A DNA stretch of 37,190 nt from a virus. Each line of letters opens with the position of its first letter. The first letter of the stretch is position 1. The notes below the pieces were generated by a model. The model was not told the origin of the DNA, ran no database searches, and was given only the letters and a program-made list of their open reading frames with translations. Both the position numbers and the translations under genes were made by a program. Shown piece by piece: positions 3,952-33,930 of this stretch. The stretch covers positions 1 to 37,190 of the IMG/VR virus record IMGVR_UViG_3300025669_000107. The stretch is one strand, 5' to 3'.

Positions 3952-4518
3952 ATGAAAGAAATTGTTGTGTGGTCAGGAGGAGCAGATTCTACTTGCATTC
4001 TTAACAGATTAGCAAAAAAATCCAGCAAACAAAATCCTGTATCAGTTTATGTTATTACAACTAATGGCGATGTTATTAAACAAAAAAAAGAACTAGAAGC
4101 CAGAACACAATTATTAAAAGAATTTAAAAAACGGGGGTATCATATACAAAAACGAAATATTGATTTAAACGGCTATAGTATTGCTAAAAATCAACCTATT
4201 ACTTGGTTATGTGGTTTAATGCCCTATTTGCAAACATATGAGGATTGTAACATACATTTTGGTTATATATATGAGGATAGTTTCTGGCATATGAGAGAAC
4301 ATTTCGTTAACGCGTTTTACTCACTTTTTAAAATGTCTTTAACACAGGTTAAATATGAATTATTTTTTGATTTGGAATGGACACACAAAAATGAAGTGTT
4401 AGCTGAACTAAAAAACGCTAAGTTATTACATTTAATTTGGACTTGTGAACACCCCACTAAAACAGAAAGGGCTTGTGGTAAATGTGATAAGTGTAAAGAA
4501 TTACGAGAAAACAAATAA
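3952..4518 (+). CDS. QueC-like PP-loop enzyme (7-cyano-7-deazaguanine synthase-like)
   Basis: 188 residues. The N-terminal PP-loop SGGADST at 8-14 binds and activates ATP. The C-terminus has C165, C175, C178 and C181 (CGKCDKC), the zinc site of QueC. QueC converts carboxy-deazaguanine to preQ0, used for archaeosine/queuosine in tRNA or for 7-deazaguanine bases in viral DNA. The protein is shorter than the usual 220-240 residues and its middle is divergent, so another PP-loop reaction is possible. No QueD, QueE, FolE or DpdA partner is visible here. A GGTGAT ribosome-binding site lies six bases before the ATG. Confidence 0.8.
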   Translation: MKEIVVWSGGADSTCILNRLAKKSSKQNPVSVYVITTNGDVIKQKKELEARTQLLKEFKKRGYHIQKRNIDLNGYSIAKNQPITWLCGLMPYLQTYEDCNIHFGYIYEDSFWHMREHFVNAFYSLFKMSLTQVKYELFFDLEWTHKNEVLAELKNAKLLHLIWTCEHPTKTERACGKCDKCKELRENK

Positions 4519-5505: not shown

Positions 5506-5776
5506 TGATAGAATAATTATTGAAAAAAGCGGAGATATTAAGTTCTCTGGAATATTAGGACTTGACAATTCTTTAGCTGTACTAAACAGCATTAACTCTT
5601 TATCTAAACAAATTATGAACCATGTTGGCGACCACATACATGAAATAACGACAATGGCAATCGTGGAAACTTTCAAGTACGCTAAAGAAACAAAGAAAAC
5701 AGAATTAGAACCAGAAGACATTGAAAAAATACTGATGCCCGTTCTTAAATTTATACAAACAGGTGATGTTAAATGA
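5486..5776 (+). CDS. Small helical protein, possible histone-fold-like half
   Basis: 96 residues, ATG preceded by AAGGTGAT. Not recognised with confidence. The C-terminal half (about 58-90) resembles the alpha2-loop2-alpha3 part of archaeal histones: an AxxxxFKYAK helix, then KKTELEPEDIEKIL, close to the RKTIKAEDIELAV segment of HMfB. The N-terminal half does not clearly match histone alpha1. The gene overlaps PCNA by four bases, so a chromatin-like or replication-accessory role is conceivable. An unrelated all-helical protein is the alternative. Confidence 0.8.
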   Translation: MDKEKDDDRIIIEKSGDIKFSGILGLDNSLAVLNSINSLSKQIMNHVGDHIHEITTMAIVETFKYAKETKKTELEPEDIEKILMPVLKFIQTGDVK

Positions 5777-6495
5777 AGATTAATGCAAACACTCTAATGT
5801 TATATTATAATACTTGTGGTTTGGGAGGCACTATAAACAGTGTGAAAACTAATTTCGGGGCTGATTCAGTGTTTACCAGTACTAAAAACGCTCCGAACAC
5901 AGTATTTATAAATGTTAAGATGAATACTGGCGTGTTTGAAAACTATTCTCCAATAGGTGATATTATTATTCGTAGTGTTGATAAATTCGCCAAGTACTTA
6001 AAATCTTATAAAAAAACAGATATTGAACTAACTAAAACAGAAGAGTTCGTTATTAATGTAAAGAATGATTTATTAGAGCATGATGTTATTTTAGGTGGTG
6101 AAAGTGTTGTCGAAGAGCGTCTTCATGATGGCAGTCTTTTGAATATTAAAGATTGTTCTGTTGTTGAAGTGCCTTATAATAGTCTTATGGACGCAATAAC
6201 CCAAATGGCAGATATTGGCAGTGAACGTATCATTTTCGATAAGAAAGAGAACGAACTAAGCATGGTCATTGATAATGGAAACAGTAGTGATAAGAGCAGA
6301 GTTAAAGTTCCTTGTGATGATGTTAGTATTAACAGAACTGTTTTGGGCAAAGTATTGTTAGAGGCTGTCCAAGTGTTTGATAAAGACTTTCCTGTAATTG
6401 TTGAAATAGGCACTGATGTTCCGATTACTTTTAAACAAACCACCGATATTTTAAGTATTGGTATGGTTATTGCCCCAAGAATAGAAAATGAATAA
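5773..6495 (+). CDS. pcn: DNA polymerase sliding clamp (PCNA-like)
   Basis: 240 residues, the size of one archaeal PCNA subunit. The sequence is divergent, but the C-terminal strand and tail LSIGMVIAPRIENE match the conserved PCNA ending (LAPRIE). Before it lie alternating strands and an acidic interdomain region as expected for two clamp domains. PCNA forms a ring on DNA and tethers PolB. The RFC small subunit and PolB genes in the same arm supply its partners. GGTGAT lies five bases before the ATG. The C-terminus overlaps the next start. Confidence 0.88.
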   Translation: MKINANTLMLYYNTCGLGGTINSVKTNFGADSVFTSTKNAPNTVFINVKMNTGVFENYSPIGDIIIRSVDKFAKYLKSYKKTDIELTKTEEFVINVKNDLLEHDVILGGESVVEERLHDGSLLNIKDCSVVEVPYNSLMDAITQMADIGSERIIFDKKENELSMVIDNGNSSDKSRVKVPCDDVSINRTVLGKVLLEAVQVFDKDFPVIVEIGTDVPITFKQTTDILSIGMVIAPRIENE

Positions 6496-10253: not shown

Positions 10254-10480
10254 CGATAGATGAAAAAGTAGAATGTGTGGCAGAACTATATTTTAAAGAC
10301 GACGCTAAAAAAAACTCTATTTTATTTTTATTAGGAGATGATAATAACATTTACGTTCCAGAAAACGTTGATAGATACTTGAAACCTTTTAATAAAGCCC
10401 CATTGAAAAATATGTATACAGATGACTTAATGCTAATAGAATATATTAAACAATATTCTATCATTGAGGAAAAACCATGA
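10250..10480 (+). CDS. Small hypothetical protein
   Basis: 76 residues, overlapping both neighbours by four bases (ATGA). Acidic and soluble, with no recognised motif. It lies between nrdD and the ABC-acetyltransferase fusion gene. Confidence 0.75.
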   Translation: MTIDEKVECVAELYFKDDAKKNSILFLLGDDNNIYVPENVDRYLKPFNKAPLKNMYTDDLMLIEYIKQYSIIEEKP

Positions 10481-11976
10481 ACTTAGATGCGTTCACTAAC
10501 CATAAAGAATTCAATTACAATATTAACGTTGAATTCGATACGGTCATAGAACAAACTGAACGCATAATCGAAGTTAGTAATGCATTTGGGTTAGGAATTA
10601 ATGAAGCTAAAAAGTTCAGCGTTTATAAAGACTTCAATATAGGATTTAATAGAGATGATGTTGTTTACATTACTGGTGATAGTGGTGGTGGCAAAACCAT
10701 CTTACTACAAGAGATAATCAATAGATTAGAACCAAGTAATGAAAAGATATTGTTTTTAGATGATGTAACCCCATGTAATGATGAGGTCGTTATCGAAAGC
10801 ATTGGAGACACTATGGACGAGTCTATTTATTACTTGTCTATGATGGGCTTAAATGACGCGTACATTTTCTTAAGAAAGTATGGTGAATTAAGCGATGGCC
10901 AAAAATATCGTTATAGATTAGCTAAAGCTATTGGTCTTAAACCAGACTTTTTATTCATTGACGAATTTTGCTGTAATCTCGATAGGACAACAGCTAAAGT
11001 AATATCGTACAATTTACAACGAGTAGCTAGAAAAAACAATATGGGAGTGTTCGTGGCAACCACTCATACTGACATTTTAGAAGACTTGAATCCATCTGTT
11101 TTAGTTACCAAATCATTCATGAATAACGTTAGAATACAATACTTAAGTTACACCCCCAAAAAAATAAGTTTTTACAATGACGTAGAGTTTAAAACAGGCT
11201 GTATTAGTGATTATAAAAGACTAAGCAAGTATCATTATAAAAACACAGGGACTAACTTCCCTTACTGTAATATAGTAAGTGCTTGGTATAAGAACGATAT
11301 TGTTGGCGTTGCAGTGTTTTCGCCTCCGTTTTTGCAAACAAAAGGTAGAACAATAAAATTCGATAAGAAATACTCTATGATGACCAAAGATGTTGTCAGA
11401 GATATTAACAAATTATTTATTAGAGGCTCTCGTTATGTCATATCTCCTAAGTATAGAGCTTGTGGTTTAGGTCAGAGACTTGTAAACGAAAGCATGACAT
11501 TTATTAAGAATAAGAAATATTTAGAAGTTGTTACAGTCATGGGTAAATACAATCCAGTATTTGAAAAGTGTGGCATGGAAAAAATAGAGATTACTGAAGA
11601 AACTGATAGTGCGGCTATAAATTTAGATAAGTGGCTTAAAGAAACTGGTTGTGATGTTGTTAGAATTAACAATGGTAAATACTTGAAACAATTTGTCGAT
11701 GGTTTGTCTCCGGAGAATAAGAACGTTCTTAAATTACTTACTGGTAAAGTATTACACCATCCTAAAATAGGCTTAAGTAGTAAAGATGGTAAGAGAGCTG
11801 AAGTTGTCAAACAAGAGAAACGATATAAAGAAACTATATTTAATGATGTTTATAATGAAATTTTAACTTACATTCCAAAGTTGTATTCTGGCATGAGTAT
11901 TTATTACATTTGTGAATTGCCAGAAAATGATGATTCTAAAGAGGTGAATTTAGAAAATTGGGAAGTGAAAAAATGA
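10477..11976 (+). CDS. Soluble ABC-type ATPase fused to acetyltransferase-like domain (COG2401-like)
   Basis: 499 residues, no membrane segments. An ABC nucleotide-binding domain fills the first 215 residues: Walker A GDSGGGKT at 67-74, signature LSDGQ at 138-142, Walker B FLFIDE at 158-163, D-loop NLDR, and switch His197. A GNAT-like domain follows at about 245-400, with RLSKYHYKN, YKNDIVGVAVFSPP and the acyl-CoA-loop-like RACGLG. The architecture matches the little-studied COG2401 group (ABC ATPase fused to predicted acetyltransferase). The acyltransferase part also recalls phage Mu Mom, which modifies adenine in DNA. DNA modification is therefore a reasonable hypothesis but not shown. The C-terminal 100 residues are unassigned. 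Confidence 0.87.
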   Translation: MNLDAFTNHKEFNYNINVEFDTVIEQTERIIEVSNAFGLGINEAKKFSVYKDFNIGFNRDDVVYITGDSGGGKTILLQEIINRLEPSNEKILFLDDVTPCNDEVVIESIGDTMDESIYYLSMMGLNDAYIFLRKYGELSDGQKYRYRLAKAIGLKPDFLFIDEFCCNLDRTTAKVISYNLQRVARKNNMGVFVATTHTDILEDLNPSVLVTKSFMNNVRIQYLSYTPKKISFYNDVEFKTGCISDYKRLSKYHYKNTGTNFPYCNIVSAWYKNDIVGVAVFSPPFLQTKGRTIKFDKKYSMMTKDVVRDINKLFIRGSRYVISPKYRACGLGQRLVNESMTFIKNKKYLEVVTVMGKYNPVFEKCGMEKIEITEETDSAAINLDKWLKETGCDVVRINNGKYLKQFVDGLSPENKNVLKLLTGKVLHHPKIGLSSKDGKRAEVVKQEKRYKETIFNDVYNEILTYIPKLYSGMSIYYICELPENDDSKEVNLENWEVKK

Positions 11977-12534: not shown

Positions 12535-13353
12535 ATGGGAAATAAACAAGAGAATGTTTCTAACAAACAAGCATGGCAAGAAGTTCTTGTTAAAGAAAAC
12601 TTAGAACGTAAAGTTCACCAACACAAATTTGACACTGATAAACAAATCATTGTTCTTATGGGAGATGAGCACATTGGAAGCAAATATTACGATTCGGATT
12701 TACATAATGAAAATGTTGAATGGTGTTTTGAAAACAATATCCCTATTATTCTAATGGGAGATGAATTAGAAACTGCTACTAAAGATAGTATAGGCGGTGG
12801 AGTTTTTGAACAAGATGATATGGTACAAGAGCAATTAGAAAGAGCCGTTGCCACTTATAAACCACTCGCTGATGAAGGCTTAATTTTAGGTAATCACATT
12901 GGAAATCATGAACGACGAGTGTTCAATCATTCAGGCGCTAATTTAGCTAAAGTATTCAGTCAATTACTAGGCATTACATATTTAGGCGTTGGAGCGGCAC
13001 ATTACATTAGAGTAGGCGATGAAAACTATACGATGTACACTACACACGGTTCTTCAGGCGCTAGATTGCCACATACTAAAATAGCTAATACTATTAAACT
13101 AGCTAATATGATTGATGTCGAAATATATGCTCAAGGGCATTTACACCAACTAAGTCATCACGTACAAAATTATTATAATATTAACAAACGTAATAAAATG
13201 ATTGAAGAAAGCCAAAAACATTATCTTATTACTGGTAGTTATTTATCACATTGGGGAAGTTATGCCCATGTCCAAAACATGGAACCTTCAAGAAAAGGAA
13301 GTCCTAAACTTAAATTATCGGGGCTTGAGCACAGAATACGTGTAAGCTTATAA
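12535..13353 (+). CDS. Calcineurin-like metallophosphoesterase, paralogue 1
   Basis: 272 residues with the five metallophosphoesterase motifs: GDEH (D44, H46), GDELE (D76), GNHE (N124, H125, E126), H171 in TTHGSSG, and GHLH (H202, H204). All metal ligands are present. The fold covers Mre11-type nucleases and many phosphatases. No Rad50-like partner occurs here, so a stand-alone nuclease or phosphatase is more likely than Mre11. The gene at 18192-18944 is a clear paralogue. Start supported by AAGGGGGC. Confidence 0.9.
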   Translation: MGNKQENVSNKQAWQEVLVKENLERKVHQHKFDTDKQIIVLMGDEHIGSKYYDSDLHNENVEWCFENNIPIILMGDELETATKDSIGGGVFEQDDMVQEQLERAVATYKPLADEGLILGNHIGNHERRVFNHSGANLAKVFSQLLGITYLGVGAAHYIRVGDENYTMYTTHGSSGARLPHTKIANTIKLANMIDVEIYAQGHLHQLSHHVQNYYNINKRNKMIEESQKHYLITGSYLSHWGSYAHVQNMEPSRKGSPKLKLSGLEHRIRVSL

Positions 13354-13379: not shown

Positions 13380-16300
13380 TTGACATTCTTAGTTGAAAGC
13401 AGACAAAAAAATAATGTTTCCGAAATTGTGGTGTTCAGAAGAGATTCTGATAACAACAAGATTGTTGATGTTGTGTCTGACTTTCGACCTTATTTTTATG
13501 TTAACGAATCAGAAACCGTGCCTGATGACTATAAAATCACAGGCATTGAGCATGGTTTCAAGTCTTTAATGGGGCAAGACGTTAAAAAAATATTTGTTAA
13601 ACAATCTATTGATGTATACGACCTCAAAACACTTTTCACTGAAACATACGAAGCAGACATTCCATTTAATCAAAGATATTTAATAGATGTGATTGGAGAA
13701 GTACCCCCTTATGAATTACGAGTGTTTGGTTTTGATATAGAAACCACTGATGAAGGAGGATTTCCAGATACGGAAACTGCTGATAAATGCATTACGGCCA
13801 TTTCTTTTAAAGATAGTTTTACTAAAGATAAAATTAAGATGCTTTATAAACATCCTGATTGCACAATAGATATTAAAGAGGACAAAAATACGTTCGTATT
13901 TGATACTGAAGAAGCTATGCTCACACGCTTTGTAAAATTTGTTAATGAGTACGACCCTGATATTATAACTGGATGGAACGTTAAAGATTTCGACTTAACA
14001 TACTTAATCAGACGTATGGATGGATTTAGATTAGACTATTCTGTAATGTCTCCAATGGGGCATGTGAGAATAGATAGTAATTACAAAGACACGATAATAA
14101 AAGGTCGTCTTGTTATGGATATGATGGAATGTTATAAACATTTCAGAAAAATCAGTAATCAAGGTCAAGCTGAAGCATACAGTTTAGAATTCACAGCCCA
14201 ACAAGTATTGGGAACTGGAAAGCTCTCACACAAAGAAAGCTTCCACGAAATGTGGCTCAACAAACCAAACGAACTATTAGAATACAACATGCGCGACGTT
14301 GAATTAGTCATGCAGATTAACGACGAACTAAAAATAATAGATTTTTTCAGCACTATATGTTGTAAAGCCTGTACCAACATGGACAGAATCTTTCACACTT
14401 CAGTTTTAGTGGACGGATTACTACTTAGAAAAACCTCAGGTAAACAAGTATTACCATCAAAAAAGAACAATGATGGAGACAAGTTTAGCGGTGCACATGT
14501 TTTAGAACCAGTACCCGGACTATATGATAACGTGTTAGCACTGGACATTAAAGGAATGTATCCCAATCTTATCAAAAGCTTTAATATAAGTTACGAAACA
14601 TTCAATCCCAATGGTAATATTAAGTTAACTGATGAGTTAGGATTTGATAGTGGTTGTGGACTTATACCGCAAACTATTATGGATTTGGAAATAGAACGTA
14701 ATGGTTATAAAAAGCTTATGTTTAAAGCTATACGTAATAAGAAAGAAAAAGACAGACTCATGTATCATTTCAGACAATACGCTGTTAAAGTACTTGCTAA
14801 TTGTTTTTCTCATGATACTAATGTACTTACTCCAACAGGCGAACGAAATATAAAAGATTTAAAAAAAGGAGATGAAGTGTTTTCTATAGAACCTAACACT
14901 AAACAATTACAAACTAAAAAAGTAACAAGAACATATGAATATGATTATACTGGTGAGATGTGCCATTTTAAGACGCAGAATATGGATTTGATGGTCACGC
15001 CTAATCATAACATGTTAGCAACTACCCCTTCAGACAAAAGAGGATTTTTTGTTAATGCAGAATATTGGAAAACTAGTTATACCATTCCAAAACATAATAG
15101 TCGCACACAAATTTTATCTAAATACATAAGTTTATTTGCAAATGTAAACGTAAACGACTATGTTTTTTTCATTAAAAAAAATGTGGATTTGAGAACTTTA
15201 AAACAAAAAATAAAGAAGGCAGTGCCAAATACTGATTATAAATTCAAAAAAATTAACAAAACACTATGTAAAGTTATTTGCACAGAAGACGAATTAAAAA
15301 AATTATTTTTACATGGTTTTAACGTGTTTGTTAAATATAGACATTATAATAATAGTTATTTAGTTAAGCCTTATATAGAAAACAGTCTTTTCTCTAAACT
15401 TTTGGGATGGTTCATATCAGAAGGAAGTTCATATGTAAGCAAACCAAAACAGTATGATAATGGCAATTATCGTGGAATCTCCAAAAAAATTACCATATCA
15501 CAAGATGAAGCACATAATCCACTATATTATAAAGAAATTGAAGATTTATTAAAAAAGTTAGAATTAAGATATTATAAAAATAAAAACGGATTTGCAATTT
15601 CATCTCCAATTTGGTTTGATAATTTAATAAAATGCGGCAAAAATTCTTACGAAAAGCACGTTCATACATCATTTACAGATGTGATTGATTACGAGTTGTT
15701 TTTCGAGTGTTTATATAAAGGAGACGGTCATAAAAATCTAAATAAGTACACTACTGTTTCCGAAAAATTAAAAAACCAATTATTAATCATACTTACAAAT
15801 TTAGGATGTAGAGTTAGATGGAAAAAAGACCAACATTTTTTCAGAATAATTTTTGATAAGTGTAATTGGAAACCACATAAAAAAAACATTACTCGAACAA
15901 AAAATAATTCTGGCAAAGTGTATTGTGTAGAAGTTGAAGATAATCATACTTTGTTAGCTGGAAGAAATAATAAATATTGCTGGTGCGGGCAAAGTATTTA
16001 TGGTTATTTAGGCTTCCCTAAATCAAGACTTTATAAACCAGAAGTTGCTGAATCAGTAACTATCATGGGAAGAAAACTACTTAAACATACTAAACAAGTA
16101 TTGGAAGATAAAACGTATCAAGTTATTTATGGCGATACTGACTCGGTATACGTTCAATCTAAAGAAACATCTTTATTTAAGCTATTAAGTGAAGGCAAAA
16201 CTCTTGTTAATCTTATTAACGAATCTTATATTAAATTTGTGAATGAGCACGGTAGCGATAATTGCACTCTAGAGATGGAGTTTGAAAAAGTGTTTAAACG

Positions 16301-16949
16301 AATTTTGTTCGTTGAGAAACGAAACAGCGGAGAAGGAGCTAAGAAAAAGTACGCTTATTTATTATTATGGGCTGATGGTAAGCCTGTCAGTGATAAAGTT
16401 GAGTTCACAGGATTTGACACTGTTCGCAGTGATGTGCCAAGAATATCTAGAATGGTTCAAGAAACAGTTTTGAATATGGTCTTAAATGGCAGTGATAAAC
16501 ACGAAGTCACTGATTTTTTAATGGACATAGAGAAGAAAATTCGTAATAAAAAAATTTCTGATGAAGAAATTGGTTTTCCAAAAGGAATCTCCAAAGAATT
16601 AAAAGAGTATGGAATCACAGTTAAAGGTGAGGATGGCAAGACTAGAAAAACTGGCTCTCCTCCTATAGTTACAGGAGCAAGATATTGTAACAAGTTTTTA
16701 GGCGCAAGATTTGGTAAAGGAAGCAAGCCTAAATGGATATATGTTAAAAGCGTTCCTAAAGGTTATCCATTAACTAAAATAATTGCGTTTGACGAGTTTA
16801 TACCAGAAGGATTTAAGATTGATTATAAATTAATGTATGACAGAATATTTAAAGCCAAACTTGAAGAAATATTTAAGGCTTGCGGTTTCGGGCAATTCCC
16901 TGAAATGGACGCAAGTGTTAAAACTCTCAGTGTTTGGTTCGGAGGTTAA
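13380..16949 (+). CDS. polB: Family B DNA polymerase containing an intein
   Basis: 1189-codon precursor; about 792 residues after splicing. Starts at TTG 13380 with GGAG nine bases upstream; no suitable ATG. Proofreading exonuclease: DIE (D119, E121), N200...D205 in GWNVKDFD, Y302/D306 in YNMRD. Polymerase: motif A LDIKGMYPN with D389, motif B KVLAN...SIYG split by the intein after N474, motif C YGDTDS (D919, D921). This is the virus replicase, expected to work with the PCNA and clamp loader of the same arm. The motif A glycine (DIKGMYP in place of DxxSLYP) is unusual but present in other viral PolBs. Polymerase activity requires intein removal, because the intein sits in the nucleotide-binding motif. 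Confidence 0.97.
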   Translation: MTFLVESRQKNNVSEIVVFRRDSDNNKIVDVVSDFRPYFYVNESETVPDDYKITGIEHGFKSLMGQDVKKIFVKQSIDVYDLKTLFTETYEADIPFNQRYLIDVIGEVPPYELRVFGFDIETTDEGGFPDTETADKCITAISFKDSFTKDKIKMLYKHPDCTIDIKEDKNTFVFDTEEAMLTRFVKFVNEYDPDIITGWNVKDFDLTYLIRRMDGFRLDYSVMSPMGHVRIDSNYKDTIIKGRLVMDMMECYKHFRKISNQGQAEAYSLEFTAQQVLGTGKLSHKESFHEMWLNKPNELLEYNMRDVELVMQINDELKIIDFFSTICCKACTNMDRIFHTSVLVDGLLLRKTSGKQVLPSKKNNDGDKFSGAHVLEPVPGLYDNVLALDIKGMYPNLIKSFNISYETFNPNGNIKLTDELGFDSGCGLIPQTIMDLEIERNGYKKLMFKAIRNKKEKDRLMYHFRQYAVKVLANCFSHDTNVLTPTGERNIKDLKKGDEVFSIEPNTKQLQTKKVTRTYEYDYTGEMCHFKTQNMDLMVTPNHNMLATTPSDKRGFFVNAEYWKTSYTIPKHNSRTQILSKYISLFANVNVNDYVFFIKKNVDLRTLKQKIKKAVPNTDYKFKKINKTLCKVICTEDELKKLFLHGFNVFVKYRHYNNSYLVKPYIENSLFSKLLGWFISEGSSYVSKPKQYDNGNYRGISKKITISQDEAHNPLYYKEIEDLLKKLELRYYKNKNGFAISSPIWFDNLIKCGKNSYEKHVHTSFTDVIDYELFFECLYKGDGHKNLNKYTTVSEKLKNQLLIILTNLGCRVRWKKDQHFFRIIFDKCNWKPHKKNITRTKNNSGKVYCVEVEDNHTLLAGRNNKYCWCGQSIYGYLGFPKSRLYKPEVAESVTIMGRKLLKHTKQVLEDKTYQVIYGDTDSVYVQSKETSLFKLLSEGKTLVNLINESYIKFVNEHGSDNCTLEMEFEKVFKRILFVEKRNSGEGAKKKYAYLLLWADGKPVSDKVEFTGFDTVRSDVPRISRMVQETVLNMVLNGSDKHEVTDFLMDIEKKIRNKKISDEEIGFPKGISKELKEYGITVKGEDGKTRKTGSPPIVTGARYCNKFLGARFGKGSKPKWIYVKSVPKGYPLTKIIAFDEFIPEGFKIDYKLMYDRIFKAKLEEIFKACGFGQFPEMDASVKTLSVWFGG
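14802..15992 (+). other. Intein with LAGLIDADG homing endonuclease in PolB motif B
   Basis: 397 residues (475-871 of the precursor). It begins at Cys475 (CFSHDTNVLTPTGE) and has block B VTPNHN. It carries two LAGLIDADG motifs: LLGWFISEGSS (about bases 15398-15430) and FFECLYKGDGH (about 15696-15731). It ends ...CWCGQ, followed by Ser872 of the extein. Removing it rebuilds the motif B run KVLAN-SIYG. The terminal residue is Gln where Asn is usual, and the penultimate residue is Gly where His is usual. Both acidic endonuclease residues (E and D) are kept, so the homing enzyme may be active. The site is known for PolB inteins in Thermococcales. Confidence 0.93.
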
Positions 16950-18191: not shown

Positions 18192-18944
18192 ATGAAGGTA
18201 AATCGAATAAATTGCGATGACGTTAAAGGAAGTACAGTAGATGTCCTATTTTTTGGAGACCAGCATCTTGGGTCAAAAGATTGTGATATGGAAGAAGTTA
18301 TTAAGATGACAAGCTGGATTAAGAAACAGAAAAATCTTAAAGTTATTATGATGGGCGACACTATAAATTGTGCTTTAAAACACAGTATAGGAGCAGGGTC
18401 TTTTGATGATAATATGACCCCAGAAGAGCAAATTAATTGCGCTATTGACTTGTTCGGGCCAATTGCTGACAAAATAGTTGGAATACACAATGGTAATCAT
18501 GGTAATAGAATGTACAATGAGACTACTATCAGTCCTGAGAAAGTGATTGCTAAGGCTATAGGAGTTCCATACTTGGGAGATTCATGTTTCCATCATTTGA
18601 GAATTGGAACCCAAACATATATCTTACATACGGCTCATGGAAGCACTGGAAGCACTACTGTTGCAGGCGCTCTTAATTCATGTATGAAATATGGTGTGTT
18701 TGCTCAAGCGGACGTTTATGCTATGGGGCACACACATAATTTAGCTACATATAACCAAGTTTATCATGAAGTTAATAAAAAAGATAAGACTTTAGAAAAA
18801 CGTAAGAAGGTTTATGTGCTTACTGGCGGTTATTTGAAGTGGAAAGGCAGTTATGCTGAAAGCAAAGGATATTCCCCTCTTAAGATTGGTTGTGCTAAGG
18901 CTACTTTCAGTGGTAAAGAGTATGATGTACATATTAGAGTTTAA
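18192..18944 (+). CDS. Calcineurin-like metallophosphoesterase, paralogue 2
   Basis: 250 residues, with GGTGAT three bases before the ATG. Motifs GDQH (D23, H25), GDTIN (D56), GNHG (N102, H103), H149 in TAHGSTG and GHTH (H180, H182). It aligns along its whole length with the product of 12535-13353, sharing SIGxG, YLG and the G-S-Y near the end. The Glu of the usual GNHE motif is Gly here. The metal ligands remain, so it is probably an enzyme with a different substrate. Duplication inside the viral lineage is the simplest origin. Confidence 0.88.
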   Translation: MKVNRINCDDVKGSTVDVLFFGDQHLGSKDCDMEEVIKMTSWIKKQKNLKVIMMGDTINCALKHSIGAGSFDDNMTPEEQINCAIDLFGPIADKIVGIHNGNHGNRMYNETTISPEKVIAKAIGVPYLGDSCFHHLRIGTQTYILHTAHGSTGSTTVAGALNSCMKYGVFAQADVYAMGHTHNLATYNQVYHEVNKKDKTLEKRKKVYVLTGGYLKWKGSYAESKGYSPLKIGCAKATFSGKEYDVHIRV

Positions 18945-22389: not shown

Positions 22390-22593
22390 ATGAAAGGAAA
22401 CATAAAATTTTTCAACGAAACAAAAGGATTTGGATTTATTACAGGAGAAGATGGTAGCGAAGTATTCGTTCACATAACTGACCTTATTGAAACAAGCCCA
22501 CAAGATTTACAAGAAAATACAGCGGTAACATTTGACGTTACTGAAGGCGACAGAGGCCCTAAAGCGGCTAATGTTAAACTAGACCAAGAATAA
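22390..22593 (+). CDS. cspA: Cold-shock domain protein
   Basis: 67 residues, one complete cold-shock domain: MKGNIKFFNETKGFGFI with the RNP1 motif and VFVHITDL as RNP2, ending with GPKAANVKL. It binds single-stranded nucleic acid and acts as an RNA chaperone. Full length for the family. The ATG has only a weak ribosome-binding site, unlike its neighbours. A T-rich run (22351-22361) separates it from the previous gene, and a T-tract follows it. Confidence 0.95.
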   Translation: MKGNIKFFNETKGFGFITGEDGSEVFVHITDLIETSPQDLQENTAVTFDVTEGDRGPKAANVKLDQE

Positions 22594-24408: not shown

Positions 24409-27400
24409 CTAATCACCTTCCAAAGAATCGACAGTAATTACACAATCATGACACATACTGTTCCATTGGAAATTAGGTATTCCAACACTAGTACAAGCAG
24501 TTAAATTAGCCCACATCCAAATATTACAACTGCCATCCACAGCTATCCCGTCACAAATTTTATTATCAACATCAGTCTCCAACACAACAGCATTTGTGGT
24601 ATAACTACTAGTGTTGGTAGTCCAAACAGTGAACCAACTATCAATAGTGTTATTTAAACTCATATATAAATCAGTAGCCTCTTCGCCACCAGTAAAATTA
24701 GCAATGTAAATAGAGGAAACACTTGTTTGGCCAAATGGTTGCACATTCTTAGCATTAACACTACTGGGGTACATATCCCAACTATTAATCTGAGGCAACA
24801 CAAAATTCACAGTAAATGGTGAATGCCTAACTTGTAATGTATAATCAGAAGTGAGATTTTCAGTAGAACTTTCACACTGCAAACTAATATTTCCACTTCC
24901 ATAATACAAAACGTTTAAATCACTGAATTTAATAATTCCATCATTACTTCTATTTACTGTAATATTAACAGAACAAGTACCACTACACCCATCTAAATAA
25001 GTATTAATATCTGTTCCTTCAACAAACACATCATCTAAAGTCTGGTTGAAACTCATATTATGAACGGTAAGTATGCCTCCAGTGCCAGAATCAGTGACTA
25101 ACAACAATGGAACTGTACAAGTTACTCCTGTACAATACTCCTCAACGTAATCATTAAGAATACTCGCAGAAAAACTTATGCTCATTGGAGTATTCGTTTC
25201 ATTCAACACACCTGTAAAATTATAACTAGGAGTTTCTGAACTAGTGCCAAAATATATAACAGTATTGTTCGGCGAACTAGACGCTACCTCTATCTTAACT
25301 CCATAAACACCACAATTATCGCCAGTAGTGTCCGCAGTATCATTAACTTCTATCTTATAACTTATAATAGAGCCCGGGGTGTCAAATGTGTGAAAAGTCT
25401 CACTGGCAACATCGTCCCAATTAGCACCATCATCAGCACTAACAAAAAAAGTCGCAGTACAACTCGCATCAGCTTCACTAGTGTAATATGTTGGCGAAAT
25501 ACTTACTGTATCGGTCGGGCCTGAATTTATAAGAATATCGCTTGTTGCGGTATAATTGCCGTTAGTGAAATTAGTACCACTCCAATTCTTTCCAAAACCG
25601 CCATAACTTATTTCAGCTAAAGCCGCGGTAGCACTGCTTGATGCTCTACTGCCCCCACAAATTGCCTTTCTACAAGTTGCGTAAGTAAGAGTTTTAACTG
25701 TCAAATAAGTTTTAACATCTTCAGCTATAGTCACAGTTCTTAAAAGAGATGCCCCCCAATACACAGCCCACTGAGTATCACTAGTTTTTCGCAAACTTAA
25801 AGTTTCTGTGCCGCCACATCCATCATTATAACAATTATCATAGGCTTTTCTAAAAGTAGCAAGGGCAACATCATACGTTCCGCCACTCGTACCATAACTA
25901 ATATAAACATAAGCTCTACTATTATAATAAGCACTGTCAGTCGTACAACTACTAGAATCTTGGTCATATCCAGACAAACTAATTACCAAATCAACATCAA
26001 CTCTCGTATTACCAATAAGGTCTATAACCGCATCTTTAGTGTTTGCCCATGAATTATCAGTTTCCTCAATAGAAGTAGAAGAAGGGCACCAACCAGTATA
26101 TGAATAACTATAAGACTCTACTCTTTCATCGATTGCGTCATAACTGGCAGTACCCCCGCCAGTAATATCGAAATTCCATCGTCCACTACGCTCAGAGGTC
26201 AAAGAATCTAACACAAATACGGGCAACGCCCCATTATAACTGCCAGTATCATTAAAGTATTCATCAGACAACCATGTTTCCTCATAATCAAGTTCAACAG
26301 GATTACTCTCTGAAGCATTAATAGTTAAAGTAATATTCTCAGTAAAATTACCAGCAGTGCTCAATAATAAATTATGACTAACACTTGTACTTGTCAATAA
26401 GAAAAATTCCTTACTAACATTATCATCTGCAAATCTATTCTCATTAAGCCAGTCCTCGCTGAAATTACCTCTTAAATTAATTTCAACGCTATTATCATTT
26501 AACACATCTAACGTAGCATCTTCAGTATAATTATAATTCCACAAATCAAATGTTAAATTAAGAACATTATAATAATCTTCTAAATCAAATGTAATAGTGC
26601 CATTATCAGTAGCATTAATACTCGTGACCGAAGTGTTCCACTTAGTCAAACTAACATAAGGAATCTCCCAAGTTACATTAACAGTTCCGTTATCACAAAC
26701 ATAATTTGTTCCGTAACCTTCAAGGTCAATAGATATGCATGCCTCAACTGTCGAAACTTCTGCTCCATCAATTGTGTCATAAATCGTGCAACTAATATTT
26801 GGACTAGTGCTTTGTTCAAACTTCTTAGTAATATTATATCCTTCAACTGTGAAATTTAAAGCACCTGTGTAATTAATACTTACTGTGTTAGATGAATTTA
26901 ATGTTACACCGTAAGTTGTTCCATCATAAGGAGTTACTTTACAAAAAACATCATCGTTTTGTGCAAAAGAAGAACTATCTAAAGAAGGAGACACTGTTGT
27001 ATATGTTAATCCCGCTTCATAAAATTTCCTATCAAATGCAGTCAACATAGTAATTTTAGTATTTACTTCATTATCAACAACACAATCATCAACAACAGAA
27101 TACGTGCTTATATTATCAACGTCGATTAAATCATTTTGTCCCAAATAAATCCAATCACTTTCCGACCAATTCCAACAATAATTTTTTTGAGCGCTCCCTT
27201 TACTAACAAGACTAACATTAGAAGTATTTCTTTCTAACGTATAATTAGCTCTATAATCCATACACACACTATTATCAGTAAGAGCATAAGTAGCAAAATT
27301 TCCATCATTCCCGTTTGCCGCTGGATAAGCTACATAAAAACAACCACTCCCCCCAAGTTCATTCTTATCTGTCGTTATATTTTTTGTTGCATCAACATCT

Positions 27401-28554
27401 GTCCATTCACTTGAAGTAATCGCGCCATTAACATACCAATTAACCACACTTTCATCCGCCCCTATTGTAGTAAAAAATTGGTAATTGCAAGTTAACACAC
27501 TATTAATAAAAGGGTTTAGCGGGGTAACATTAACACTTTCAACCCAAATAGCTTCTCCAAAAGTAAAATTAAGACTGTCAATACTAACATTAGTAGTACC
27601 ATTATTATCCAAAAAACACTGATAAAAAAAGTATTGAGTAGTTGTAGAAAAAAGTTTGGAATCGCCAACATTGCTTAAATCAAACCACGTACTATTATCT
27701 TGACTGACATTGCATTTAACACTGCCGTTATTACCAACACCATCATCCCAAGTTTTAGTAGTTAAATTAACTCTACTCCAATTAGTACCAACACTAATAT
27801 TAGTAGAATAAACATAACCAGTATCATTAGAATATAAACTAGCTAATCCACCACTTATTGTAACATTTGTTTTAGATTGAATATCTGTTTCGTTATCAAA
27901 AGGCTCCCAGAAACTTTGCTGGTACTGGCCTTCACTAGCTATCTGAATTACTGGGTCAATAAATAAATTGCCCTTAATATTCCCATAATGATGTTCGCCG
28001 TCAACCATACCAACATACAACATATCATCAGGGCTAAAATCGTATTCATAATCATCAGTTCTATCTTTTATAATTTTAAGTCTTATTCTATGTTTAGCTG
28101 TGTTCTCATGAGTGAAATTATAATTCCACTTAATTTTATCACTAGTAAAAATGTAATCAATAACTAATAAACCATCAGTGCCACTATAACCTTTATAATA
28201 AGGGACTTCTTTTCTAACAACGAAATAACCGGGGGTTTCATCCACAACATAAACATCAATTAAACTTGCTTTTCTATTATCTTGCACCCACCAAGCATCC
28301 TCACCTGTGTCTTCATTAACACCATAAGTACGCCAATAATCAACATACTCTTTACTCTCAAAAACAACATGCCAACCACATTTTACTTTCATATAATCAT
28401 CATGAACAATTAAAGTAAGACCATCATCACACCCTTCACTAACTGGAAGCTCAACAACAACTCTATCATCTAAAATACTTACTGTGAACACAGCCCCACC
28501 TAACAACACCATTGTTAACAATATTACTAGTCCTTTGTATTTATACTCTGTCAT
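24409..28554 (-). CDS. Giant fibre-like surface protein with N-terminal membrane segment
   Basis: 1381 residues, the largest mature product of the window. Residues about 7-28 form one hydrophobic segment (signal or anchor). After that it is strand-rich with very many Asn-x-Ser/Thr sites, fitting N-glycosylation as on archaeal surface proteins, and a moderate number of cysteines. Several beta-sandwich-like repeats are suggested, for example near 1030-1110 (TSDILINSGPTDTVSIS, then FFVSADDGANW). Its place between the tail-tip gene and the hub gene points to a tail fibre or receptor-binding protein. A secreted N-terminus is odd for a virion part that assembles in the cytoplasm. A host-surface adhesin is the alternative. 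Confidence 0.85.
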   Translation of the reverse strand: MTEYKYKGLVILLTMVLLGGAVFTVSILDDRVVVELPVSEGCDDGLTLIVHDDYMKVKCGWHVVFESKEYVDYWRTYGVNEDTGEDAWWVQDNRKASLIDVYVVDETPGYFVVRKEVPYYKGYSGTDGLLVIDYIFTSDKIKWNYNFTHENTAKHRIRLKIIKDRTDDYEYDFSPDDMLYVGMVDGEHHYGNIKGNLFIDPVIQIASEGQYQQSFWEPFDNETDIQSKTNVTISGGLASLYSNDTGYVYSTNISVGTNWSRVNLTTKTWDDGVGNNGSVKCNVSQDNSTWFDLSNVGDSKLFSTTTQYFFYQCFLDNNGTTNVSIDSLNFTFGEAIWVESVNVTPLNPFINSVLTCNYQFFTTIGADESVVNWYVNGAITSSEWTDVDATKNITTDKNELGGSGCFYVAYPAANGNDGNFATYALTDNSVCMDYRANYTLERNTSNVSLVSKGSAQKNYCWNWSESDWIYLGQNDLIDVDNISTYSVVDDCVVDNEVNTKITMLTAFDRKFYEAGLTYTTVSPSLDSSSFAQNDDVFCKVTPYDGTTYGVTLNSSNTVSINYTGALNFTVEGYNITKKFEQSTSPNISCTIYDTIDGAEVSTVEACISIDLEGYGTNYVCDNGTVNVTWEIPYVSLTKWNTSVTSINATDNGTITFDLEDYYNVLNLTFDLWNYNYTEDATLDVLNDNSVEINLRGNFSEDWLNENRFADDNVSKEFFLLTSTSVSHNLLLSTAGNFTENITLTINASESNPVELDYEETWLSDEYFNDTGSYNGALPVFVLDSLTSERSGRWNFDITGGGTASYDAIDERVESYSYSYTGWCPSSTSIEETDNSWANTKDAVIDLIGNTRVDVDLVISLSGYDQDSSSCTTDSAYYNSRAYVYISYGTSGGTYDVALATFRKAYDNCYNDGCGGTETLSLRKTSDTQWAVYWGASLLRTVTIAEDVKTYLTVKTLTYATCRKAICGGSRASSSATAALAEISYGGFGKNWSGTNFTNGNYTATSDILINSGPTDTVSISPTYYTSEADASCTATFFVSADDGANWDDVASETFHTFDTPGSIISYKIEVNDTADTTGDNCGVYGVKIEVASSSPNNTVIYFGTSSETPSYNFTGVLNETNTPMSISFSASILNDYVEEYCTGVTCTVPLLLVTDSGTGGILTVHNMSFNQTLDDVFVEGTDINTYLDGCSGTCSVNITVNRSNDGIIKFSDLNVLYYGSGNISLQCESSTENLTSDYTLQVRHSPFTVNFVLPQINSWDMYPSSVNAKNVQPFGQTSVSSIYIANFTGGEEATDLYMSLNNTIDSWFTVWTTNTSSYTTNAVVLETDVDNKICDGIAVDGSCNIWMWANLTACTSVGIPNFQWNSMCHDCVITVDSLEGD

Positions 28555-28930: not shown

Positions 28931-31900
28931 TTATAACGTCCTCGTTTCTCTCTGTATTTCTCTAACAAATGCGTCCGCAAAATCACTAGCACTGCCAGTA
29001 ACGCCCTGAATAATGACATTAGCAATACTGACGCCCGGTTGGGCATTATTATCAGAAACGGGTCTATCAACTTTAGGAGTTCCATTCACCTTCCAAGAAT
29101 CCACATCATATCCCTTACTCATATTAGTCTCCCCTTGCAGTTTAAAAACATCTGCCATATACGCGCTTCTCGAATCTTCATACTCTTGAGTATTTTTTGG
29201 GTCATACGATGAACTAAGTAAAGCTGAACCGCTAGAAGACGATTCTTCCCCTAAAGCGGCTTCTCGTTTAGCGTCTTTCATCTCAAGAGCTGCCTGCATA
29301 GCCTGTAATGCCGCTTTAGCTTTACTAATCAATTCATCAAACTTACTTTTCAACTCATCAATCTTAGTCTTAATGCCGTCATAAGCAGACCGTTGATTTT
29401 CCAATGATAATGTCAATGCGTCAACTCTACCCTGATGAATTTTGACCATAGCGGCGGCCTGACTCTGAGCAACCCACTCATTTTTCAACGCACTAACCAC
29501 TTGCTCACTACTTTCATAAACGCCCTTAGCTTCATCTTCATGAGCCTGAACAGAATATGCTACGTCATCTTGCATTTCTCCATAATAAACTGCATACGAA
29601 TCTTTTAAATTTCTAATAACTTGTTCAACTTCATTAATTCTATCACTCTCAGCACCAGAATCTTCCTGATATTCTGTAGTGCCCATAAGCATAGTCTGAT
29701 ATTGAGTAACAGAACCGCTAACATTAGAACCTAACTTATTACCACTGGCAACAGTTTCTTCAATAAACGCGCTAACCGTTTCACGCCACGCCTTATAAGT
29801 AAGCATACCATCATTGGCGGCATTATTAACAGCAGTAATACTATCAAATAATTTATAATAACCATGTTCACTCTTACCTAACATTTCTTGAATGTAACCA
29901 TGAGCATCAGTAATACCTCTTTCAGCAAGTTCTTCTTTCTTAAGCCATCTCTCACCGGCAGACATTAAAGCTTCAGTAGCCGTTTGGTCTTTAAACCTAG
30001 CACTTGTTAAATCGCTAATAGTATCATTAATATCATCTAATTGGTTTTGCCAAGATTTCAGTTCTCGTTTCTCAGCCTTTAAACTAACAGTTGTTTGTTT
30101 AATCAATGCGTCCATAGCGCGCAAATCATCATTTAAATCATCAACTTCAGCTTGAACATCTCGCATATTTTCTCTATAATCTGAAAGCACATTAATCATT
30201 TCCTGATAAGACCGAGAAGCTTCACTTATAGCTCCCTCGCCAGCACCACCTTCACGCATAGCATCAGTTTCCATATCACGACCGACATCAATATCATCAA
30301 TCCAACTAGAAATTTTTCTAATCTGACTATTCTCACCAGATTGTCTTATGCTCTTCCAAAAATCAGCCCAATAATCGCCAACTTTTTCAATGGCTTTAGC
30401 TAACTTATTAGCCTCAGCAGTGCTAATCTCAAAATACTTGCCAACATCTTCCATTCCAAGAAGCATATCCACAGCTTCAGCAACGGTAATATTGTACAAT
30501 TTCTGCAACTGCATAATTTCTTCAATTCTAGAACCTACTCTACCATAATTATCATATTCTTCTTTGGCGTTTTCTTTCGCAACGCCTGTAGACTTAGCCT
30601 GCTCTTCAAACGCCTCCATAGTTAACGTATGTAATTCTTCTCTAACTTTCAGCAAGTCAGCCTGCGATTCCAAAGCTTTAGCATCTTCTTTTCTACCTTC
30701 TTCTTTCGCTTTAGCAATATCTGCGTATAATTTTCCGAGAGCAGACAAAGTTTGATACGAAGCTTCATCCTCTCGCTCAGTATTAATCTCTTTACCAGCT
30801 CCAGCTAAATTTTTAGCTCCGTAAGCAATCGCGCCCAGAGTTCCATACTTAAAATATTTTATCTGTTCTTTAATACCCTCCATACTTTTTTGTTTTTCAA
30901 CAATCATATCAATAGCTCGAACAACTAAATCAGCTCCTCTAATAGCGTGAGTTCCAAGATTGGAAAAAAACTCTGCTGTCTTGCTTGTCGCAAAAACGTT
31001 TCTTAAACTATTCCACGCTTGAGCCATACGATTAGCATTACTTTCCATTTGTGTAGCAACATTATCACTAACACCACCAGCCATTTGTAATTGCATGGCC
31101 ATATCTGAAATACTTTCACCGGCCGCATTAGCCTGATTGAACAACATATTAACAGCTCTAGCGCCTCTAGCACCAAAAATATTTGCGAGAACCTCGGCAC
31201 TATTTGACAAACCATTAGTAGCAGTTCTTAAATCATCAAGAACAGCAACAGTATTTCTAGCCTTACCACTACTATCCTGCCAAGCAACGCCAAGTCTTTC
31301 CATAATATCAGAAGCTTGAGCCCCCGGCTTAATAAGTGATTGTAAAGCTTGGTTTAAAGAAGTACCAGCTTTACTAGAAGTCAGACCAGCATTTTGCAAA
31401 ACCCCAAGCATACCAATAACTTCAGGCAAAGTAATACCTAACTGACTAGCATTACCAACAACATAAGAAAGCGCTGTGCCTAAAGTTTCAACATCAGAAG
31501 CAGTAGCATTAGCAACCTTAGCAATAACCTCAGTAACATAACCAGCTTCAGCACCACTCATATTATAAGCGTGAAGTGTAGTAATTAACAAATTAGCGGC
31601 ATCATCTAAATCACTAAAACCAGCAAGAGCCAAACTTTGAGCGTTTTTAACAACAGTCATAGCGTCAGCGGCTTCAAAACCAGCTTTATTAATTTCCAAA
31701 AAAGAAGCAGAAATATCATCAAGAGCGAACACACTACCACTAGCGGCATCCATTAATTTACCTTTAATGGACTCAGCGGCCTCTCCAGTTGCGGCACTAA
31801 TTTTGTAAACGCCTTTCTCGAACTCCGTAAAGTTCTTAGCCATAATCACAAACGGAGCGGCAATGCCAGCTAACGCGGCCCCAACAAACATAACATTGAC

Positions 31901-32164
31901 CATAGCCCAACGAAGATTAGCAAGACTTTTGTTCATAGCAAGAACTCTTGCATTAACAGCAGAAGCCTGAGCTTTCAAACCAGCTAAAGCTCCACCAAGT
32001 TTTCCAGCAGAAGCAGTAGCAACCGCAGTACTGGTAGCTTGTTTACCAACAGCACTAGTTAATTTAGAAGACTCAGCAGTAACCTGTTTATAATTAGAAA
32101 CTACACCAGTAGCACCACTACTAGTGAACGCAAACTTCTCTGTAATAACGTTATCCAACCCCAT
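28931..32164 (-). CDS. Tail tape measure protein (TP901 core family)
   Basis: 1077 residues. Residues about 115-350 match the TP901-type core: EFEKGVYKISAATGE, LTSSKAGTSLNQALQSLIKP, and IFGARGARAVNMLFN. A hydrophobic segment at about 90-113 (MVNVMFVGAALAGIAAP) is typical. Long helical and coiled-coil regions follow at 540-970. It sets tail length and is ejected with DNA; at about 1.5 angstrom per residue the tail would be near 160 nm. It starts seven bases after the stop of the frameshifted chaperone, as in most siphoviruses. Confidence 0.95.
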   Translation of the reverse strand: MGLDNVITEKFAFTSSGATGVVSNYKQVTAESSKLTSAVGKQATSTAVATASAGKLGGALAGLKAQASAVNARVLAMNKSLANLRWAMVNVMFVGAALAGIAAPFVIMAKNFTEFEKGVYKISAATGEAAESIKGKLMDAASGSVFALDDISASFLEINKAGFEAADAMTVVKNAQSLALAGFSDLDDAANLLITTLHAYNMSGAEAGYVTEVIAKVANATASDVETLGTALSYVVGNASQLGITLPEVIGMLGVLQNAGLTSSKAGTSLNQALQSLIKPGAQASDIMERLGVAWQDSSGKARNTVAVLDDLRTATNGLSNSAEVLANIFGARGARAVNMLFNQANAAGESISDMAMQLQMAGGVSDNVATQMESNANRMAQAWNSLRNVFATSKTAEFFSNLGTHAIRGADLVVRAIDMIVEKQKSMEGIKEQIKYFKYGTLGAIAYGAKNLAGAGKEINTEREDEASYQTLSALGKLYADIAKAKEEGRKEDAKALESQADLLKVREELHTLTMEAFEEQAKSTGVAKENAKEEYDNYGRVGSRIEEIMQLQKLYNITVAEAVDMLLGMEDVGKYFEISTAEANKLAKAIEKVGDYWADFWKSIRQSGENSQIRKISSWIDDIDVGRDMETDAMREGGAGEGAISEASRSYQEMINVLSDYRENMRDVQAEVDDLNDDLRAMDALIKQTTVSLKAEKRELKSWQNQLDDINDTISDLTSARFKDQTATEALMSAGERWLKKEELAERGITDAHGYIQEMLGKSEHGYYKLFDSITAVNNAANDGMLTYKAWRETVSAFIEETVASGNKLGSNVSGSVTQYQTMLMGTTEYQEDSGAESDRINEVEQVIRNLKDSYAVYYGEMQDDVAYSVQAHEDEAKGVYESSEQVVSALKNEWVAQSQAAAMVKIHQGRVDALTLSLENQRSAYDGIKTKIDELKSKFDELISKAKAALQAMQAALEMKDAKREAALGEESSSSGSALLSSSYDPKNTQEYEDSRSAYMADVFKLQGETNMSKGYDVDSWKVNGTPKVDRPVSDNNAQPGVSIANVIIQGVTGSASDFADAFVREIQRETRTL

Positions 32165-32170
32165 TAAACA

Positions 32171-32757
32171 CTACCTTTTCTTGCTCTTTTTACTATTCTT
32201 TTTGTACTGTCTCTCTTTTTCTCTCTGTTCCCTATTCCAAGAGTCTACTAAAACATCAATCTCTGTCCAAGTAAGACCGCCAATATTGAAGAAGTTATAA
32301 CCTCTACGGTGTAAAAACAAAATTAAGTCCCCTTCTTCACGTTTAGACTTAATCGCTCTCAGTTTTTTCCGAAATCGTCCTCTTTTTTCTCAATAGCTTT
32401 CTTCAAATTCTTATTCTTAGAAACATCAACACCACTCTCAAATAAAATCGTGTTAACAATAGCTGTTCCGATTCCTTTCAAATCCTGCAAATCCTTCTCT
32501 TCATACTTAGGGTTGATACAATACTTTAAAATTATCTTGCCATCCACGTCAATATCGTTACCATCAGCGTCCTTCGTTCCTGCTTCATTAAAAGCTTTCT
32601 TTAACTCAGCCTTAATCATAGGAATAATAATAACAGTTTCTCCCTTAAAAGGAAGTTGCTCTTTATCATTCTCATCAACAATTAACTTAACTTCTTGAGG
32701 AATTAACACGCCTTTCTCATCTCTTGAAAACAATGTTGATTCTTTTTTCAATACCAT
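32171..32757 (-). CDS. Tail assembly chaperone GT fusion made by -1 frameshift
   Basis: Reads the 132-codon upstream frame (32757-32359) and slips back one base on A AAA AAC (32368-32362). It then continues for 63 codons beginning LRAIKSKREEGDLI and ending at TAG 32171. This matches the lambda gpG/gpGT scheme: same place (between tail tube and tape measure), long plus short product, heptamer right at the stop of the short frame. The added part has a helical, Trp-containing core (GGLTWTEIDVLVDSWNRE) and a very basic tail (KKNSKKSKKR). It should recruit the tape measure and tube during tail assembly. Confidence 0.85.
32359..32757 (-). CDS. Tail assembly chaperone (gpG-like, unshifted product)
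   Basis: 132 residues ending KKEDDFGKN just after the slippery heptamer. AGGTGATG precedes the ATG. Mixed strand/helix, charged, including a segment DADGNDIDVDGKIILKY. The identity rests on position (after the tail tube gene, before the tape measure) and on the overlapping frame with a shift site. The unshifted form should be the major product. Confidence 0.88.
   Translation of the reverse strand: MVLKKESTLFSRDEKGVLIPQEVKLIVDENDKEQLPFKGETVIIIPMIKAELKKAFNEAGTKDADGNDIDVDGKIILKYCINPKYEEKDLQDLKGIGTAIVNTILFESGVDVSKNKNLKKAIEKKEDDFGKN
32362..32368 (-). promoter_or_regulatory. Slippery heptamer for programmed -1 frameshift
   Basis: On the - strand the sequence is GG-A-AAA-AAC-TGA in the zero frame, an exact X-XXY-YYZ heptamer (X = A, Y = A, Z = C), with the zero-frame stop directly after it. 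The -1 frame is open for 63 more codons. No strong downstream pseudoknot was identified by eye. Confidence 0.85.
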
Positions 32758-32824: not shown

Positions 32825-33910
32825 TTAATCGCTATATGAGTCATCATTGTCAACGACATAAAGCTTTGAAGCCTCAACAAATACGCCAATATTCTGAGAC
32901 ACAATGTCCTCAGGAGCACCAGCAATATTAATATCGTTAAACTTACAACTTCTCAAAATTATTCTAAACCAATCATCAGTCGCAACTTTAGGCGTAGCGC
33001 CAATAGTTCCTGTTCTAACAAAATCAAGAGCAACCTGATACTCGCTTAAAGTAGTCTGTGAAGTTGTAGCTGTATCTGAACCCAAAAATCTTTGATACAT
33101 CGTCTTATCAGCAAAGTGCAACCCTAAATTAGCTTCATAATCTCTTCCTTTAGGAACAAGCTTCTTAAGTTCTCTCTTAGTATGATAAGCATTTGTAGTT
33201 CCGCTAATATACCAAACAGCTTCTAAGTTGTTATTAACACTAACATCAAAACTGTTAACCTCAGCAATCCTAGAAGTACTTTCAACTGTATCATACGCAG
33301 TAATAGCTCCAGATGTAGAATAAACTACTCCCTGATAAAATACGAATGGGTCTTCGGTTCCTTCTGTGACACTTGTAGCCCCAGATGTAGACATTGTAAC
33401 TCCCTGAGCCATCCAATCAACAGCTATTTTAACTGGTTCATCAACACTAGCACTGACAGTCATGTTATTAACTCTACAACCTCTATAAGTTCTATGTAAG
33501 TTGTATGTTCCAGCAGTACTCTCATCATCTGAAAATTCCATAGTGAAACTTGGAAAATCGTCAACCAAAGGAGAAGCCGCACTTCCTAAAACGTGTAAGT
33601 AACTTGCACCAGTATGAATCTTAGGACCTGAATCCACAGTAGCCGTACTGGCAGTATCTTCACTCCAACCTTGTCTTAAAAAAGCACAGTCTTGTAAAAA
33701 ATATTCAAAACTTCCGCTAACTTCAAACTTGCCCGGAACTATGTTACTATAATCTCTGTTGCCACCAAGAGTTCTAACTTTTATCAATGAATTTGTTTCT
33801 GTAGGATTAACGCTTTGCACCAATCCAAATGCTCTATTAACTGTAGCGGTAGAACCATAATTTGTTTCGTTCGCCCAATATAAACTTTGCTTGTAGCCGG
33901 TATTAGTCAT
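32825..33910 (-). CDS. Major tail tube protein
   Basis: 361 residues from ATG 33910, four bases after GGTGGC; a GTG at 33919 overlaps that site. The layout of a tail tube protein is seen: NTGYKQSLYWANETNYGS start, GGNRDYSNIVPGKFEVSGSFEY, many beta strands, and a paired second half (VNSFDVSVNNNLEAVWYISG, PKGRDYEANLGLHFAD). The repeat of such elements suggests two related tube domains. It lies directly before the chaperone/tape measure genes and is the likely most abundant tail protein. Confidence 0.85.
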   Translation of the reverse strand: MTNTGYKQSLYWANETNYGSTATVNRAFGLVQSVNPTETNSLIKVRTLGGNRDYSNIVPGKFEVSGSFEYFLQDCAFLRQGWSEDTASTATVDSGPKIHTGASYLHVLGSAASPLVDDFPSFTMEFSDDESTAGTYNLHRTYRGCRVNNMTVSASVDEPVKIAVDWMAQGVTMSTSGATSVTEGTEDPFVFYQGVVYSTSGAITAYDTVESTSRIAEVNSFDVSVNNNLEAVWYISGTTNAYHTKRELKKLVPKGRDYEANLGLHFADKTMYQRFLGSDTATTSQTTLSEYQVALDFVRTGTIGATPKVATDDWFRIILRSCKFNDINIAGAPEDIVSQNIGVFVEASKLYVVDNDDSYSD

Positions 33911-33930
33911 AATAGCCACCTATAATTTTT

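Follow-up and report, generated by a model that had tools for sequence, protein, structure and literature searches.

A lambda G/GT-type programmed −1 ribosomal frameshift predicted in the tail assembly chaperone gene of an AT-rich virus with archaeal-type replication genes

The two overlapping reading frames, G and T, located between the tail tube and tape measure genes of the virus contig IMGVR_UViG_3300025669_000107 (IMG/VR; the whole stretch of 37,190 nucleotides was analysed and is hereafter called the window) are very probably expressed by programmed −1 ribosomal frameshifting of the bacteriophage lambda G/GT type, in what appears from its genes to be a siphovirus-like archaeal virus. A preliminary description of the window, made from its letters only, had proposed such a −1 shift in the tail chaperone gene of an archaeal virus, and this proposal was supported by the gene order, the slippery heptamers, the selection acting on the T frame, the lack of start codons in that frame, and the archaeal replication genes.

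All genes of the locus lie on the minus strand, and their layout, order, and phase can be read directly from the sequence. The tail tube protein gene (32825..33919, 364 aa; PF18906 Phage_tube_2, 6e-26), the product of which showed distant matches to haloviral tail tubes, is followed by G, the zero-frame tail assembly chaperone ORF (32359..32757, 132 aa), the 3' end of which reads GAC GAT TTC GGA AAA AAC TGA. The slippery heptamer A AAA AAC (32362..32368) lies here in the X XXY YYZ phase, GGA AAA AAC TGA, and the zero-frame stop TGA (32359..32361) is situated directly 3' of it; the position and phase given in the preliminary description were thus correct. T (32171..32362) overlaps G in the −1 frame relative to it without a start of its own, and would be reached by the frameshift as an extension giving a G-T fusion of ~195 aa; it begins with CTG AGA GCG, consists of 63 codons (32362-32174) followed by TAG (32173-32171), and reads LRAIKSKREEGDLILFLHRRGYNFFNIGGLTWTEIDVLVDSWNREQREKERQYKKNSKKSKKR from 32362 up to this stop. 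Only six bases separate the T stop from the tape measure protein gene (28931..32164, 1077 aa; PHROG tape measure, 1.7e-47; PF10145, 7.5e-36), the ATG of which begins on the seventh base (32164), in agreement with the spacing of seven bases reported previously for the 63-codon frame. Gene calling based on start codons misses the coding region 32171-32358.

The protein family was assigned from several lines of evidence. The window G showed no significant family match in Pfam and PHROGs, and the PHROG 'tail assembly chaperone' (phrog_4976) was matched by two of 21 G family members (best 2.6e-4), with a PHROG chaperone match also found in one of 23 T members (0.0039). When a structural model of G (pLDDT 79) was compared with the PDB, the top three matches were YqbN (3klu) and the HK97 tail assembly chaperone (2ob9, two chains), all of them weak (E 0.17-0.67), and the named matches in BFVD included chaperones from Gordonia phages, Halobacterium phage ChaoS9, and Haloarcula hispanica tailed virus 2. 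A sequence-profile search for solved structures returned nothing meaningful; neither the window G nor the T of the related lineage L019 gave a tblastn match in cultured phages even at E = 10, and no provirus copies were confirmed in bacterial or archaeal genomes. Taken together, the fold matches of the model, the PHROG matches of some family members, and the gene order thus made tail assembly chaperone the best assignment for G and T.

According to the proposed mechanism, the majority of the archaeal host ribosomes would halt at TGA and release G (132 aa), and a minority would move back by one base at A AAA AAC and read on in the −1 frame as far as TAG, yielding G-T (~195 aa). As in lambda, G may coat the tape measure protein, and the T part of the fusion may recruit tail tube subunits; a low G-T:G ratio would then set the correct assembly, and neither protein would be expected in the virion.

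Since the GC content of the window is 34%, slippery heptamers are common in it: nine in-phase copies of A AAA AAC and 34 in-phase heptamers of the homopolymer type were counted in the 11,701 codons of the window genes. One heptamer would fall within the G/T overlap of ~10 codons by chance with P ~0.02, and thus the single heptamer of the window is unremarkable and would not convince by itself, so that relatives were needed. Viral contigs were therefore searched with the alignment of the T domain (−1 frame) only, the heptamer never being part of the query, and the resulting 34 loci were reduced to 25 distinct lineages upon removal of near-duplicates. A canonical in-phase heptamer, defined as A AAA AAC/G/A or U UUU UUA/G, was present within the overlap in 23 of the 25 lineages, compared with 0.54 expected from each locus's own rate; the corresponding nominal value of 1e-40 is not a true P, because the lineages are related and nominal probabilities overstate the significance. 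The conservation of the heptamer in relatives, suggested earlier as a check, was thereby borne out. The contrary pattern named in the preliminary description, retention of both frames in the absence of a slippery site, was seen in one of the 25 lineages only (L034), to which the fused lineage L025 is added.

The 23 heptamers comprised A AAA AAA (11 lineages), A AAA AAC (6), A AAA AAG (3), U UUU UUA (2), and U UUU UUG (1). The same A AAA AAC was found in phase in L019, L020, L023, L027, and L040, and 17 further lineages carried another canonical heptamer. In L004/L019, the tail tube of which is 72% identical, GCA AAA AAC TCC occupies the equivalent position, and conservation of the −1 frame sets in at the heptamer. 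The zero-frame TGA was not kept in L019 and L023, in which the zero frame continues for ~12 codons. The order tube-G-T-tape measure was observed in the sampled relatives, with a Phage_tube_2 protein before the pair and a tape measure after it. On the tree, the heptamer type switches on several branches while slipperiness stays, and in the lineages with U UUU UUA/G the encoded residues change as well. As both the heptamer type and the encoded residues vary, it is slipperiness, not a peptide, that is retained.

T itself behaves as a coding region. Between the window and L019, its frame (59 codons) differed at 13, 9, and 38 sites in codon positions 1, 2, and 3, so that third positions held 38 of the 60 differences, and the amino acid identity was 76%; the other two frames of the T stretch in the window contain four and nine stops. 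This pattern indicates purifying selection on the T frame, and the coding region that had been pointed out as missed proved to be real. In the same pair, T was better conserved than G (76% vs 42%), and the motif H-x-x-G-Y-x-F-F...L-T-x-x-E was nearly invariant in 23 T sequences.

It is very unlikely that T is produced as a separate small protein from its own start, for instance at the in-frame TTG (32320-32318) that follows AGAAGGGGAC, by termination-reinitiation. This TTG does exist in the T frame of the window with a purine-rich stretch 5' of it, but it is the sole start codon of the window before the T motif and is replaced by CTG in L019, and in 17 of the 25 lineages the stretch from the slip site to the motif contains no ATG, GTG, or TTG; independent initiation of T is therefore improbable. 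Moreover, the conservation of T between the window and L019 begins at the heptamer, 5' of any start codon, and a separate start would leave unexplained both the presence of heptamers in 23 of the 25 lineages and the L025 fusion.

Programmed frameshifting would also fit the RNA structure found downstream. A putative stimulatory stem-loop (32321..32354, minus strand) with a 10-bp stem (32354-32345 with 32330-32321) and a 14-nt loop begins 7 nt 3' of the window heptamer (z = −2.18). When averaged over 23 loci, the structure z peaked directly after the heptamer at −1.40, against a flanking background of −0.23 (sd 0.30), and codon-preserving randomisation gave a mean z of −1.49 vs −0.09 in 420 control stretches (P = 1.4e-4). 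A hairpin just 3' of the heptamer is thus significantly enriched across the family. That of the window is moderately unusual, 17% of the control sites being equally stable; the hairpin was strong in L020, L027, L044, and L048, and none was present in L023, L031, L045, and L047. Two stem pairs showed compensatory changes among the four closest relatives, a thin covariation not beyond that of shuffles. Positioned ~7 nt 3' of the heptamer, the hairpin probably increases the slippage rate. On the 5' side, a Shine-Dalgarno (SD)-like GAGG lies 10 nt from the heptamer in the window, L019, and L023; with 12% of background sites equally strong, its anti-SD pairing was not unusual in the window, and the coding of Glu-Asp could be an alternative source of it. 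Scanning the window against Rfam and for tRNAs gave no matches.

Slippage of RNA polymerase on the A run, with an indel in some of the mRNAs joining the frames, would likewise connect G to T. Runs of 9-10 A, a length at which bacterial RNA polymerase can slip, occur in several relatives (e.g., L026, L031, L036, L037, L045, and L049), and transcriptional slippage is possible in those lineages. As the explanation of the locus, however, it is highly improbable: the run in the window is six A followed by C, the U UUU UUA/G and A AAA AAC heptamers of the relatives follow the pattern of tandem tRNA slippage, and the enrichment of a 3' hairpin fits ribosomal stimulation and counts against slippage at transcription. 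That an assembly error or decay of the gene split one gene into two frames by an artificial or mutational indel can hardly be credited, since, despite the existence of an in-frame fused version in L025, a separate contig (L001/L003) 99.97% identical to the window has the same sequence at the site, and the split is common to 23 diverged lineages with purifying selection on both frames.

The two exceptional lineages deserve separate description. In L025, a 94 kb contig carrying RadA and PolB, G is read into T without a shift (5659-6183; GGA AAA CAT TTA AGG), as would be anticipated were the fusion protein functional, and the next frame has a stop immediately after the G/T junction; recoding may have been lost here, or its direction reversed. 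In L034, both frames are retained with no canonical heptamer (3293-3320; GAT TTT CAG CAA AGG TAA), and T has no start codon ahead of the motif; another shift site or an assembly indel are the candidates. An assembly indel may be the origin of either exception. A broader and rather doubtful extension of the frameshift model, which we hold only tentatively, is that a large uncultured family including the RadA-encoding archaeal clade keeps a complete −1 recoding cassette of heptamer and hairpin (~5-8 nt apart), that archaeal ribosomes respond to it like bacterial and eukaryotic ones, and that L025 inverts the logic. If so, the fusion would be read directly in L025, whereas making G by itself would require shifting to the frame that stops immediately (GAA AAC ATT TAA).

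As for the host, the window encodes a RadA assigned at the equivalog level (NF003301, 376.8 bits vs the cut-off of 259), an RFC small-subunit-like clamp loader, a PCNA-like clamp, and a PolB to which haloviral polymerases are the closest. These replication and recombination genes of archaeal type, found alongside the tail module, point to an archaeal tailed virus (Caudoviricetes), the host being deduced from the replication genes. RadA was found only in the close clade consisting of the window, L019, L020, L023, and L025, and some of the wider relatives outside this clade may be bacterial phages.

Several other genes of the window were also noticed. The family B DNA polymerase (13380-16949) contains an intein, as indicated by Hint and intein N-terminal splicing matches, and the 1181-aa PolB of the related contig L019, the match of which is split in two, suggests an insertion there also. 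A 499-aa protein (10477-11976) apparently has an ABC-type ATPase domain fused with a GNAT-like acetyltransferase domain, and 22390-22593 encodes a cold-shock domain protein (PF00313, 8.4e-22), here in an archaeal virus. A QueC-like gene (3952-4518; PF06508, 2.3e-11) is possibly involved in 7-deazaguanine DNA modification, and an HD-domain / tRNA nucleotidyltransferase-like protein (2-1186) is truncated at the left edge of the window. The products of 12535-13353 and 18192-18944, neither having a Pfam match, share GD-x-H-x-GSK and GNH motifs and look like paralogous metallophosphoesterases. A protein of 1381 aa (24409-28554) matched nothing in Pfam or NCBIfam and is possibly a tail fibre or spike; its gene separates the tail module from the strand switch near 22.7 kb.

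With respect to annotation, the analysis restores a missed coding region of 63 codons, and it carries well-supported −1 frameshifting of tail chaperones beyond a few haloviruses, into a clade of AT-rich archaeal viruses that encode RadA and into about 20 additional lineages of uncultured viruses. The natural heptamers, the variants with and without a hairpin, the fused lineage, and the lineage lacking a heptamer also constitute a comparison set for slippage by archaeal ribosomes.

The remark in the preliminary description that documented −1 recoding is scarce in archaeal viruses held in part: several haloviral cases have been predicted or annotated, and our partial literature search found neither a junction peptide nor any other direct experimental demonstration for an archaeal virus. 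The −1 sites have been predicted in HCTV-1 (G GGA AAC), HCTV-2 (A AAA AAC), HCTV-5 (G GGA AAG), and HVTV-1 (PMC5009743; PMC8211752), as well as in Hardycor1 (G GGA AAT; PMC7911831), while an apparent +1 shift is seen instead in the HF1 group (PMC7230728) and a +1 shift, not −1, has been proposed for HSTV-2 (PMC5009743). In GenBank, haloviral chaperone frameshifts, including that of HCTV-2, are annotated as joined CDSs.

The type case is bacteriophage lambda G/GT, with which the window shares the architecture, the position, the −1 shift, predicted here, near the end of G, and T as a C-terminal extension (PMC5009743); no sequence similarity was detected, and the product ratio and protein contacts are carried over by analogy. 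Outside viruses, fucA of Sulfolobus solfataricus offers an archaeal −1 site of the A-AAA-AAN type, A-AAA-AAT, which has experimental support and a putative 3' stem-loop, although it belongs to a cellular enzyme gene for an unrelated protein and is flanked by rare codons (PMC8037382). Among the haloviruses, HVTV-1/HVTV-2, HCTV-1, HCTV-5, and Hardycor1 resemble the window in having a predicted −1 shift between the chaperone frames, 5' of the tape measure, whereas HCTV-1, HCTV-5, Hardycor1, and HVTV-2 employ G GGA AAN heptamers in place of A AAA AAC. The gp40/gp41 pair of Haloarcula californiae tailed virus 2 (HCTV-2) shows the order tube-G-GT-tape measure, and its sequence has an in-phase A AAA AAC followed by TGA at the end of gp40, as in the window; unlike the window, it comes from a high-GC halophile virus and has a longer T part (about 490 nt). 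Tail-chaperone −1 frameshifting is thus a known kind of recoding, already annotated with this very heptamer in a halovirus, and what the present locus adds is the breadth of its conservation outside haloviruses.
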